Part shown: one piece after another, positions 10,555-26,569 of the stretch
Layout of the letters: the number at the start of each line of letters is the position of its first letter
Numbering within the stretch: the stretch's first letter is position 1
From: Deltaproteobacteria bacterium
Lineage (GTDB): Bacteria; Desulfobacterota; Desulfobaccia; Desulfobaccales; Desulfobaccaceae
Direction: 5' to 3'
Assembly: GCA_019309545.1 (NCBI GenBank)
Contig: JAFDGA010000011.1
Coordinates: forward strand, 1 to 57,491
Length of the DNA: 57,491 nucleotides
Notes under the pieces: generated by a model
What the model was told of the DNA's origin: nothing
Seen by the model: the letters and a program-made list of their open reading frames with translations, nothing else
Databases searched by the model: none
Program-made: the position numbers and the translations under genes

Positions 10555-10565
10555 GGCTAGCAACT

Positions 10566-10630
10566 AATGGCGATGAGGTCCGCCTCTAACCGCCTGTAGC
10601 TGGAGCCAACAGGCTGATGACTTCTATTGG
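10566..10630 (+). promoter_or_regulatory. fluoride riboswitch (crcB motif) aptamer
   Basis: The sequence carries the hallmark crcB-motif elements in order: GGCGATGAGG, TCCGCC, AACCGCC with a variable hairpin, GGCTGATGAC and TTCTATTGG. These correspond to the conserved GGCGATGAGGCCCGCC and GCTGATGGCCTCTACTG blocks of the structurally known fluoride aptamer. The 3' part (from 10620) also forms the 5' arm of a terminator, so fluoride binding should favour read-through (an ON switch). It sits directly upstream of an antiporter with its own ribosome-binding site. Confidence 0.9.
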
Positions 10631-10665
10631 ATATCAATGGTGCAATCCGGTAGAAGTTTTTTTTT
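10620..10665 (+). terminator. intrinsic terminator (expression platform of the fluoride riboswitch)
   Basis: A 13-bp stem (10620-10632 with 10645-10657, including two G-T pairs) with a 12-nt loop is followed by nine T residues (10657-10665). The 5' arm overlaps the last aptamer block, so terminator and aptamer are mutually exclusive. GAGGAG, the ribosome-binding site of the antiporter, starts at the next base. Confidence 0.88.
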
Positions 10666-10680
10666 GAGGAGAAATCGCGC

Positions 10681-12147
10681 ATGGCTTTCAGTCTCGCTGT
10701 AATCATTGTCTTGGGATTGGCTGCTGATTATCTGTTCCGCAAGATCAAGCTGCCCGGCCTAGTGGGCATGCTGATTGTTGGCATCCTGTCCGGACCTTAT
10801 GTGTTCAATCTTCTTGACCCGGCCATGATGGCGGTGTCGGCGGATTTTCGCAAACTGGCGCTGATTGTCATTCTGTTGCGGGCCGGTTTTGAACTGCGCC
10901 GCGATACCCTGCATCGTACTGCCCGCCCGGCCTTGCTGATGTCGGCAGTGCCGGCCCTGTTTGAGATTTTCGCGGTGATTATCTTGGCTCCGACTTTGCT
11001 GGAATTGAACTGGTTGGAAGCCGCCATTTTGGGAACAATCCTGGGTGCCGTGTCTCCGGCCGTCGTCGTGCCTCTGATGATTAATTTTATGGAACGCGGC
11101 AAGGGGGACAAAAAAGGCATTCCCACTCTCATTCTGGCCGCCTCTTCCATTGATGATGTCTTTGTGATTGTGATCTTTACCATTCTGCTGGGCGTGTACG
11201 GCGGCCAACAAATCAATCTGGCCTGGCAACTGGCCGGTATTCCAATCTCCATTGTCCTGGGGATCATCGTCGGCCTGATTCCCGGCTATATTTTGTATAA
11301 ACTCTTTCTCAGATACGAGTTGGCGCCCCCCCGGAAGACCATTCTGATCATGGGGGTAGCCATTGTCCTGACGTGGATTGAGGATCTGGCCCATCGTTAT
11401 CTGCCCATCGCCAGCCTTCTGGGGGTCATGGCCATCGGCTTCATTATTCTCGAAAAAGAGGAGGCCATTGCTCACATCATCTCCCAGAAACTCAAAAAGC
11501 TCTGGGTATTCGCCGAATTGTTGCTGTTTGTCCTCGTCGGGGCCGAGGTTAATATTCACGTTGCCTGGGACGCGGGCCTGGCGGGCCTGGCCGTTATTGG
11601 TTTTGGCCTGGTCTTTCGCTCTGTCGCTACCTACCTCTGCGTGCTGGGCGCCGGCCTCAACTGGAAAGAAAAACTATTCTGTGTAGTTTCTTATATTCCC
11701 AAGGCCACGGTGCAGGCGGCGATCGGGGCCATTCCCTTGGAGGCCGGAGTGGCTGGAGGCGAGGTGATCCTGGCGGTGGCGGTGCTGTCTATTCTGGTTA
11801 CCGCGCCCATCGGGGCTATCGGCATTATGCTGATGGGAGAGCCGATCCTGGAGGTTGAGGAAAAATCGATTTATCGCTTCAAACCACTGCGGGAAAAGCT
11901 GCAATTGCCCCGGGTCGGCCAACGGGTGCGACATAAAAAGCATGGCACGATCTGGAAGATCATTGAGGAAAAAGAGATCTGGCTCGAGGAACAGACTGAC
12001 CGCGGTTTCCACCTGATCCCGGCCATAAACCTAAGATTTTGGAAACCCCGGGAGGGACAGCGGCTGGGGAAGGGCCGAACCATGAGCCATAATTATACGG
12101 CCAACGGTCCTTCTTTTCACGAACACTGGGAAATCATGCCTGATTAA
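10681..12147 (+). CDS. cation:proton antiporter (NhaP/CPA family), fluoride-regulated
   Basis: The 488-residue protein has about 12 hydrophobic segments over residues 1-390 and the antiporter core SSIDDVFVIVIF with the adjacent Asp158-Asp159 pair, as in Na+/H+ exchangers. GTILGAVSPAVVVP lies ahead of it in the unwound-helix region. A soluble tail of about 100 residues follows (RVRHKKHGTIWKI..., a KOW/SH3-like short beta stretch). The fluoride riboswitch upstream says it is needed in fluoride stress. Sodium/proton antiporters of several types are known crcB-motif targets, and a role in restoring pH or expelling the ion is inferred. The start is firm: ATG at 10681 with GAGGAG nine bases upstream. 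Confidence 0.85.
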   Translation: MAFSLAVIIVLGLAADYLFRKIKLPGLVGMLIVGILSGPYVFNLLDPAMMAVSADFRKLALIVILLRAGFELRRDTLHRTARPALLMSAVPALFEIFAVIILAPTLLELNWLEAAILGTILGAVSPAVVVPLMINFMERGKGDKKGIPTLILAASSIDDVFVIVIFTILLGVYGGQQINLAWQLAGIPISIVLGIIVGLIPGYILYKLFLRYELAPPRKTILIMGVAIVLTWIEDLAHRYLPIASLLGVMAIGFIILEKEEAIAHIISQKLKKLWVFAELLLFVLVGAEVNIHVAWDAGLAGLAVIGFGLVFRSVATYLCVLGAGLNWKEKLFCVVSYIPKATVQAAIGAIPLEAGVAGGEVILAVAVLSILVTAPIGAIGIMLMGEPILEVEEKSIYRFKPLREKLQLPRVGQRVRHKKHGTIWKIIEEKEIWLEEQTDRGFHLIPAINLRFWKPREGQRLGKGRTMSHNYTANGPSFHEHWEIMPD

Positions 12148-24044: not shown

Positions 24045-24305
24045 ATGCAAGGCACCCATGAACATCGGCACCTACATGCTCATGAGCACACGCATGTGCA
24101 TACCCATGAGCATCGGCATGGGGATTTGGTTCATTCGCATGAGCATTCCCATACCCATGTGCATGAACATGTGCACGAACACTCCCATCCCCATCAGCAT
24201 GCCGGGGATATCCACGTGCACGACCATGAGCACCCCGGCGAGCATGGCTCTCATGAGCATGAACATCCGGCTCATGAAGCCGAAGTCCACGATCATGAGC
24301 ACTAA
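24045..24305 (+). CDS. histidine-rich protein, probable metal (nickel/zinc/copper) binding
   Basis: The 86-residue protein has 35 histidines (41%), mostly alternating with other residues as HxHxH through its whole length, plus Glu and Asp. It has no Cys and no signal peptide. Such composition is known from nickel-storage proteins of the Hpn type and from His-rich tails of metallochaperones (HypB, SlyD, UreE), so storage or buffering of a divalent metal is the natural inference. The ATG at 24045 follows GGGAGGAGAACGCA, a strong ribosome-binding site, and its own good promoter lies upstream. The repetitive CAT-codon composition makes neighbouring frames open as well; the promoter, ribosome-binding site and terminator mark this one as real. 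Confidence 0.8.
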   Translation: MQGTHEHRHLHAHEHTHVHTHEHRHGDLVHSHEHSHTHVHEHVHEHSHPHQHAGDIHVHDHEHPGEHGSHEHEHPAHEAEVHDHEH

Positions 24306-24420: not shown

Positions 24421-24846
24421 CTATTTTCCCGCCAACTTCCACAGGTCCAGGATGCCGACATTGGCGATAATGCGGCCCTGATCATCCACAATGGGGATTT
24501 CTTTGATATTAGCCCCCGCCATCCGGTCAATAGCTTTATCCAGAGCATCGCTTTTCCGGGCATAGATCACATGCTTGTCCATAATGTCGGCTACTTTCTG
24601 GCAAGTAAGGCGGGTCAACAACGAGCGGACGAAAAAGCTGGGTTTATTACGCGCTTCGATAACATGGCGGATCAAGGCTCCTAAAGAGATGGTCCCCTGC
24701 AGCCGCCCCTGCTCATCCACCACATAAATTCCACGCACCTGCCGCAGATCGGTTATTTTATCAGCTACCTGCTCAAGAGTCGCGTCACCGCTGACCGCCA
24801 GATAGGGCAGGTTGTCGAGTTTATCCAGGACCTCGCCGATCTTCAT
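24421..24846 (-). CDS. CBS-domain pair protein (downstream partner of the antiporter)
   Basis: The 141-residue protein is made almost only of two CBS motifs. The first ends IYVVDEQGRLQGTISLGAL and the second ends EIPIVDDQGRIIANVGILDL, with a helical linker between them. CBS pairs bind adenine nucleotides, SAM or c-di-AMP and gate partner proteins, often ion transporters. Its ATG shares a base with the antiporter stop (TAATG), so it is translationally coupled. It resembles the CBS protein at the other end of the operon and lies opposite the His-rich gene. Confidence 0.88.
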   Translation of the reverse strand: MKIGEVLDKLDNLPYLAVSGDATLEQVADKITDLRQVRGIYVVDEQGRLQGTISLGALIRHVIEARNKPSFFVRSLLTRLTCQKVADIMDKHVIYARKSDALDKAIDRMAGANIKEIPIVDDQGRIIANVGILDLWKLAGK

Positions 24847-26099
24847 TAGCCCTCCTGTGATAGGGGTTTACTGGTATGGGAAATTTCATCAGCCCGGAGT
24901 AGAGCATATTTGACCAGGGGTGGAGCGATCAGCTCATTAATGATTACCGAGCCGATCACCGCGCCCACTAAGATACTGGCCACCAGAGGTTGGGGAAAGA
25001 TCTCCCGGGCCGCCAGCACCAGACCGACCGTCACTCCGGCTTTGGGGAACAGGGCCAGTCCTAAATATTTTTTGATCACTTTTGGGGCGCGGGAGATTTG
25101 CCCTCCGACCCAGGCCCCCAATTCTTTGCCACTGATACGACAGATGATAATGGTTAGGGCCAGCAATCCGGCCGACTTGAATACCCCCAGGTCCAGATGG
25201 GCTCCGGCCAGCCCAAAAAAGAGGCCAAACAGCGGCTCTTCGATCTGTTCGATTACCATAAAAAAATCATGGTGCCGCCGCTCCAGGTTGACAATAATAA
25301 AGCCTACGACCATATTAGCCAGTAAGGGCGAGAGTCTTAATAAGATCGCCACTCCGCTGGTACTGAATAAAACACCCAGTATCACCATGAACAACGCTTC
25401 CCGCCGACGAACCAGGCGAGCCATAAATTTCAGACCCATGCCAGCCAATCCCCCCAGCAGCAGGGAGAAGCCTATCTCTCGTACTGGACTTACTATCATC
25501 CTGAGCCATGAAACTGCCTCGGGATTAATTAAGACATGAGCAGCAGTCTCGGCCAGGGCAAAAAAGATAATCGCTAAGCCGTCATCTAGGGCAATGACTC
25601 CCAGTAAGGTAGTAGTGAAGGGACCGCTGGCCCGCAGCTCAGCGATTATAGCCAGTACCGCTCCGGGAGCGGTGGCTACTGAGATGGCTCCGATTATCAG
25701 GGCCATGGGCAGGTAAGTAGCAAACAGTTGATAATCTGGCCCTCGAAGACCGGTTAACCAGGGCAAAGCCGGGGTCAGCAGAACCGCAGTGACCAGGAAG
25801 GCCCCGACCGCCTGGGAGACGGAGATCCATAGTATAATTTTTCCTAAACGCTTAAGGCGTTCGTAAACCAGACTGCCCCCGATGGAATAAGCGATAATAC
25901 CCAGGGCGATTTCGGTGATGATATAAAGATCTTCATCGATTACCCGACGCGACAAGATATTGGAAAAAGAGGGGCTAAGCAGCATGCCCGCCACCAGATA
26001 GCCGCTGATCCGGGGCAGATTGATGGCGTTAGCGGCCCGGCCTCCCCAATAACCTAGAATCAGCAATAGACCTACCGCCAGTAAGGGATGGCTGATCAT
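24846..26099 (-). CDS. cation:proton antiporter (CPA2/Kef-like membrane domain)
   Basis: The 417-residue protein has about 12 membrane segments. Typical features are the N-terminal GYWGGRAANAINLPRISGYL, then VAGMLLSP, a core helix with IGAISVATAPGAVLAII, and a second with LLGVIALDDGLAIIFFALAE holding the conserved Asp pair. I chose ATG at 26099, which overlaps the upstream CBS stop by 4 nt (ATGA); the frame is open to 26129. It lacks the RCK/TrkA regulatory domains of Kef, and separate CBS proteins flank it. Probable monovalent cation/H+ exchange. Confidence 0.87.
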   Translation of the reverse strand: MISHPLLAVGLLLILGYWGGRAANAINLPRISGYLVAGMLLSPSFSNILSRRVIDEDLYIITEIALGIIAYSIGGSLVYERLKRLGKIILWISVSQAVGAFLVTAVLLTPALPWLTGLRGPDYQLFATYLPMALIIGAISVATAPGAVLAIIAELRASGPFTTTLLGVIALDDGLAIIFFALAETAAHVLINPEAVSWLRMIVSPVREIGFSLLLGGLAGMGLKFMARLVRRREALFMVILGVLFSTSGVAILLRLSPLLANMVVGFIIVNLERRHHDFFMVIEQIEEPLFGLFFGLAGAHLDLGVFKSAGLLALTIIICRISGKELGAWVGGQISRAPKVIKKYLGLALFPKAGVTVGLVLAAREIFPQPLVASILVGAVIGSVIINELIAPPLVKYALLRADEISHTSKPLSQEG

Positions 26100-26569
26100 T
26101 GAAGCGCCTTTTCTCTCTTCTTGAGCCACAACTCCAAGAGGTCCAGGATATCGAGGTCAGCAATGACCCGGCCCTGCTGATCCAGGACCGGCAAGTCCCG
26201 GATATTACGTTCAATCATTCGGGCTAACACCTCGTGGAGGGTTTCCTGCTCCTGACAGCTGCTGATGTCGGGGTCCATTACATCTTCGGCCTTTTCCGAG
26301 GTGAAAAGTTCGGTAATATGTTCACTGACTACCATGATGTCACTGACTCGATCGGACAGATAAAATCGGAAGATCACATCCTTAAGCACATCCAATGATA
26401 TCGCACCTATGAGCTTCCCCTCCCCATCAACTACATAGACCATCCGCCGCCGGTGCCCTTTGACCATGGCCCGGACTACATCCTTCAAGGAAGCTCCTGG
26501 TGTGACTACCCCAAGTTGGGCCTGATGACCCAAAGAACTCAGAAATTCCCTGACCGTTATCCGTTCCAC
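26096..26569 (-). CDS. CBS-domain pair protein (upstream partner of the antiporter)
   Basis: The 157-residue protein has two CBS motifs (MVYVVDGEGKLIGAISLDVL and DLPVLDQQGRVIADLDILDL) linked by a helical stretch. An acidic segment (EDVMDPDISSCQEQE) precedes the second. It is the first gene of the three-gene minus-strand operon and is coupled by ATGA to the antiporter. It is a paralogue of the CBS gene at 24421. The two could form a heteromeric sensor on the cytoplasmic face of the exchanger. Confidence 0.88.
   Translation of the reverse strand: MERITVREFLSSLGHQAQLGVVTPGASLKDVVRAMVKGHRRRMVYVVDGEGKLIGAISLDVLKDVIFRFYLSDRVSDIMVVSEHITELFTSEKAEDVMDPDISSCQEQETLHEVLARMIERNIRDLPVLDQQGRVIADLDILDLLELWLKKREKALQ

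Follow-up and report, generated by a model that had tools for sequence, protein, structure and literature searches.

Three genes that lie in a row on the minus strand of the window (the whole analysed stretch of 57,491 nucleotides from a Deltaproteobacteria bacterium of the Desulfobacterota, contig JAFDGA010000011.1) encode a stand-alone CBS-pair protein, a CPA2 cation/proton antiporter, and a second stand-alone CBS-pair protein. We consider it probable that they form one membrane system, a NapA-type antiporter with cytosolic CBS regulatory subunits encoded in cis; a physical complex, its gating, and the transported ion are what we infer for this system. The antiporter (P0002) would export Na+, possibly Li+ or K+, in exchange for H+ and is predicted to be electrogenic. 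The CBS pairs would dock on the antiporter dimer at its cytoplasmic side, where binding of a small cytosolic ligand would change antiporter activity, much as KhtT (RCK_C) does for KhtU. The CBS protein encoded downstream (P0001) would be the general subunit, and the one encoded upstream (P0003) its paralogue, an additional subunit that became fixed in a single clade.

Operon layout and identity of the antiporter

The open reading frames, overlaps, and domains predicted originally were all recovered, and the genes are joined by ATGA and TAATG as first described (Table 1). Pfam places CBS domains in P0003 and P0001 (E-values 5.2e-18 and 1.9e-16) on either side of the Na_H_Exchanger domain of P0002 (9.2e-30). 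P0001 and P0003 each carry two tandem CBS motifs (PF00571) and are thus CBS-pair (Bateman module) proteins. At the second joint, AGGAGGGCTAATGAAG, antiporter and P0001 overlap by 1 nt in TAATG, with a strong Shine-Dalgarno sequence (AGGAGG) ahead. A GTG at 26129 was rejected as the antiporter start; relatives begin at the position matching the ATG at 26099.

Table 1 Features of the CBS-antiporter-CBS operon, in positions of the window.
Feature	Position	Strand	Detail
P0003, first gene, stand-alone CBS pair, 157 aa	26569-26096	-	GTG start, GGGAG just 5'
ATGA 4-nt overlap, CBS-1 stop/antiporter start (translational coupling joint)	26096..26099	-	CTTCAATGATC
P0002, second gene, NapA-like CPA2 cation/proton antiporter, 417 aa	26099-24846	-	ATG start; Pfam PF00999
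Shine-Dalgarno and TAATG 1-nt stop/start overlap, antiporter/CBS-2	24846..24856	-	AGGAGGGCTAATG
P0001, third gene, stand-alone CBS pair, 141 aa	24846-24421	-	ATG start

The operon is bordered in the window by a Fur-family gene and a MacB/FtsX-type ABC export cluster. These outer neighbours differ from those of two other loci with the same three-gene arrangement, and the unit is therefore the three genes themselves. A search against a defence-system library gave no match. Just outside the triad, on the plus strand (24045-24305), lies an 86-aa open reading frame that is extremely histidine-rich (HEH/HVH repeats) and has no Pfam match; it is possibly a metal-storage peptide. Elsewhere in the window (10560-12147, plus) a fluoride riboswitch sits directly 5' of a gene for a further CPA-type antiporter (488 aa).

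P0002 had been described as a CPA2-type antiporter lacking the cytoplasmic RCK domain of Kef proteins. Both points were borne out, and its placement within CPA2 can now be refined to NapA-like, with a D-D...K signature, as opposed to Kef-like. Among solved sequences, NapA is the best match to the P0002 family profile (E 6.7e-11). The predicted structure (pLDDT 85) matches the NapA fold with a Z score of 38.6 and an rmsd of 3.5 over 375 aligned residues, against a Z score of about 25 for KefC. Core residues of P0002 are A142-T-A-P145, D172-D173, and K325, of which D172, D173, and K325 align with the aspartate pair and TM10 lysine of NapA; the combination of ATAP, DD, and K occurs together in 84 of the 96 sequences of our motif census. 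The polar Q or N that replaces the first aspartate of the TM5 pair in Kef-type proteins is absent from P0002. No C-terminal RCK/TrkA-N (KTN) domain was found in it, Pfam reporting PF00999 alone, and in the predicted model the last helix spans residues 371-402 of 417, so that the chain ends about 15 residues later and carries no fused regulatory domain. Kef-like identity was rejected on the missing RCK domain, the intact DD core, and the fold ranking.

An acidic residue at position 6 of the CPA motif together with D7 and K8 marks the electrogenic CPA2 clades, and K+ selectivity is indicated by Ser or Thr at position 1 or 4 (PMC6181914). Positions 1 and 4 of P0002 are A and P which, with the D-D...K core, predict a Na+-type, probably electrogenic antiporter. 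This prediction does not extend to every relative. Three antiporters in the window's clade, one of them inside a complete triad, have no DD pair (L133, 4137-5378; L019, 1498-2736; and L021), with ALDD changed to AISY or ALSY and ATAP to ATAS, while the TM10 lysine and the CBS partners are kept. Antiport is therefore not universal in the clade, and these proteins may transport without coupling, form channels, or serve purely as sensors. Genome G346 also has a second CBS-antiporter locus with the DD pair intact.

Association of the antiporter with CBS genes across genomes

In a first genome scan a single-protein query returned no matches and a family alignment was needed; with it, a profile scan of one genome per species (84,980 species) yielded 224 relatives, the best 80 of which were fetched with their flanks. 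A CBS-pair gene adjoins the antiporter on the same strand, or a CBS pair is fused to it, in 78 of 86 non-redundant close relatives. This linkage recurs in Desulfobacterota, Chloroflexota, Actinomycetota, Aerophobetes, Elusimicrobiota, Planctomycetota, methanogen/ANME archaea, and Thermoproteota. The usual form among relatives is an antiporter with one CBS gene. Orthologues of P0001 lie directly 3' of the antiporter in most relatives. The antiporter precedes the CBS gene in most Desulfobacterota, in Actinomycetota and ANME-1, and in one Thermoproteota archaeon, and follows it in Aerophobetes, many Dehalococcoidia, Methanosarcinales, and Elusimicrobia. Overlaps of 4 or 11 nt between antiporter and CBS genes are found in many relatives.

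The association also holds when read from the CBS side. CBS profiles searched against 395 genomes of the window's phylum gave 33 matches above a score gap between 75 and 57 bits, and all 33 adjoin an antiporter of the P0002 family; CBS genes of this kind were thus not found to occur mostly apart from it. The apparent exception, G404, is an assembly in which a gap cuts the antiporter, and the 3' end of the gene is present beside the CBS gene. Some relative of the antiporter is present in 87 of the 395 genomes.

Natural fusions add to this picture. In five open reading frames antiporter and CBS pair form a single polypeptide: in Planctomycetota (L083, with one, and L094, with two) and in the window's own phylum (L137 and L153). 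In farther relatives a universal stress protein (USP) or PTS EIIA_2 domain is fused at the same end as CBS (L036, L038, and L152; L032, L033, L035, and L037 carry such domains after the antiporter); those of them that were in the motif census have DN, DS, or GD in the core, not DD. Since CBS, USP, and EIIA_2 modules are all fused past the last helix, this site has been used repeatedly for regulatory modules. When the L083 fusion was folded along with 21 antiporter relatives, the antiporter part was good, and the CBS part had a pLDDT below 50, at which its placement is unreadable. The fusions are, short of biochemistry, the best evidence that the stand-alone CBS proteins would act on the antiporter. 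Among distant relatives (L142 and L145-L150), two different antiporter genes stand in tandem, often overlapping, an arrangement that suggests heterodimeric antiporters.

The association is not absolute. Eight of the 86 close relatives have no adjacent or fused CBS, and while two of these are cut by contig ends, six have room on both sides; several relatives at 30-36% identity are likewise free of CBS. The antiporter can therefore work without CBS. The six close relatives, along with a gap of more than 50 nt between antiporter and CBS gene in about a third of loci, could be taken to mean that the genes are simply co-transcribed, the CBS proteins acting in general stress without any contact with the antiporter. 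The exclusive association in the 395 genomes, the recurrence of both gene orders across phyla, and the gene fusions all speak against such a reading, and we regard it as very improbable. A chance operon was rejected, because the linkage recurs across phyla, natural fusions exist, and the triad is complete in five further genomes. That the CBS proteins are dedicated partners of the antiporter, as first proposed, is thus upheld by linkage, exclusivity, and fusions for the pairing in general, while the form with two CBS genes is confined to a small clade.

The antiporter family was not found in the other 28 genomes of the window's order, and the operon may therefore have been acquired horizontally. 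Plasmid records contained only four distant antiporters, all below 34% identity.

The second CBS gene and candidate ligands

Complete triads occur in six genomes: the window, L010/L040, L011/L041, L012/L039, L042/L129, and L133 (slash-joined names denote one genome present in two collections). A seventh triad locus, L047, is cut at a contig end. The 4-nt ATGA joint is also seen in L039, L041, L047, and L133. As originally predicted, P0003 and P0001 are paralogues (35% identity, E 1.6e-15). In a CBS tree that took in the six upstream copies then collected, these form one clade (support 100/99) apart from all downstream copies, which points to the second CBS gene being an old addition of single origin as opposed to a recent tandem duplication. 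With the P0003 profile, scores above 200 bits were reached in triads only. The antiporter tree places the triads, together with single-CBS operons, in one 20-row clade and does not resolve the branching within that clade. The triad is a small, clade-specific variant of a widespread antiporter-CBS pairing.

What the upstream protein contributes can be approached from this distribution. The downstream CBS protein might gate the antiporter alone, with the upstream one accessory to it (in assembly, stability, or tuning within the clade), like the third gene of KhtTUS/CpeABC. The downstream type is indeed the general partner and the P0003 type restricted to one clade, single-CBS operons are the norm, and a small third gene is also present in Kht/Cpe operons (PMC10117811). 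Other lineages, however, pair the antiporter with an upstream CBS gene alone, so the upstream position is compatible with full function. An accessory P0003 is possible, though on balance doubtful.

CBS pairs usually dimerise, and the two paralogous pairs are always co-encoded in triads. Both facts would suit an obligate heteromer of P0001 and P0003 gating the exchanger in response to an adenine nucleotide. In nucleotide-binding CBS modules the [ST]xxD motif touches phosphate and ribose. The motif halves of P0001 are ISLGA and VGILD (SxxA and GxxD) and those of P0003 are ISLDV and LDILD (SxxV and DxxD), so that neither protein has a complete [ST]xxD in either half. This runs counter to the nucleotide sensing originally proposed for the two proteins. 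Of the other downstream partners, 43 of 54 keep the motif complete in at least one half, which favours a nucleotide, and all 15 of the other upstream partners do so. In the window's group, by contrast, none of the 7 downstream proteins does, and among triad upstream proteins 2 of 6 do; not one of 13 CBS2 motifs in the triad group is complete. The GxxD of CBS2 also occurs in single-CBS relatives and therefore either predates the triad or is independent of it. Its presence in relatives lacking a second CBS gene further means that the change is not tied to heteromer formation, a point against the heteromer. On motif evidence, then, a nucleotide ligand is plausible for the antiporter-linked CBS family and is not supported for the P0001/P0003 pair, and we judge an obligate nucleotide-sensing heteromer unlikely. 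Equally improbable is a version with a non-canonical site, composed of GxxD from one paralogue and DxxD from the other, by which their obligate heteromer would gate an electrogenic Na+/H+ antiporter. If true, a heteromeric CBS sensor with such a site would be a new mode of CPA2 regulation.

A different kind of signal has also to be weighed. In OpuA or MgtE the CBS modules respond to ionic strength or to an ion, and MgtE is among the closest solved CBS sequences. The nucleotide motif is degenerate in the window's clade, and an ion sensor would be useful to an ion exchanger. Most relatives outside that clade nevertheless keep the nucleotide-type motif, and sensing of ionic strength or an ion in place of a nucleotide strikes us as somewhat unlikely. 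The organism's own genome encodes a c-di-AMP cyclase (DAC) domain, but so do 354 of the phylum's 395 genomes, and so nearly universal a cyclase does not discriminate for or against c-di-AMP as the ligand.

Comparison with known systems and significance

A cytosolic CBS regulator of a NapA-type antiporter, the reading we favour, has parallels in several transporters. The original prediction knew of no described system of this form. A literature search found no paper describing a CBS-CPA2 operon, most subscription journals being outside its reach, and databases must contain CBS-CPA2 gene pairs and fusions that have gone unnoticed. The claim was nonetheless too strong, since KhtTU(S) and CpeAB(C) are comparable systems that use RCK_C.

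The antiporter of KhtTU(S) in Bacillus subtilis, like that of the homologous CpeAB(C) in Streptomyces, is of CPA2 type and shares its operon with the gene of a separate cytosolic protein, an RCK_C regulator to which c-di-AMP binds, and with a small third gene; regulation there comes about through a ligand bound by the soluble subunit (PMC10117811). Like the triad, these systems co-encode a stand-alone cytosolic regulator and a CPA2 antiporter in a short operon; they differ in that the regulator is RCK_C, whereas here it is CBS pairs combined with a NapA-like DD-K core. By this analogy the triad would work like KhtTU, its closest working parallel, and is a non-member of that group because its regulator belongs to a different family.

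NapA of Thermus thermophilus and the electrogenic CPA2 clades are closest to P0002 in solved sequence and fold and share D-D on TM5 and K on TM10, although positions 1-4 of the CPA motif read ATAP in P0002. We know of no CBS partner for NapA. The glutathione-gated K+/H+ antiporters KefB and KefC share the CPA2 fold and are ligand-gated by a cytosolic part; their first aspartate is replaced by a polar residue and an RCK/KTN domain is fused on, neither of which is true of P0002. CBS-pair control of transport is itself a feature of CLC, MgtE, and OpuA/OpuC, and in eukaryotic CLC exchangers (PMC7271328) and OpuC (PMC5919688) the CBS pair adjusts transport activity to a cytosolic ligand. Those systems have other transporter folds, with CBS fused to the transporter or its ATPase; in the antiporter system described here CBS stands alone and is fused in some distant relatives only.

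Judged from gene context and sequence, the CBS proteins are very probably cytosolic regulators of the antiporter. The pairing points to a large group of CPA2 antiporters under CBS control, apparently not described before, among anaerobic bacteria and methanotrophic and methanogenic archaea. CBS gating would stand parallel to the RCK (Kef), RCK_C (KhtT), USP-, and PTS EIIA-linked relatives. Fused, one-subunit, and two-subunit forms can be compared directly, so that how a CBS module gates an exchanger of the NhaA fold becomes testable. The answer bears on the cytosolic signal by which energy-limited anaerobes throttle a transporter that costs them proton motive force.
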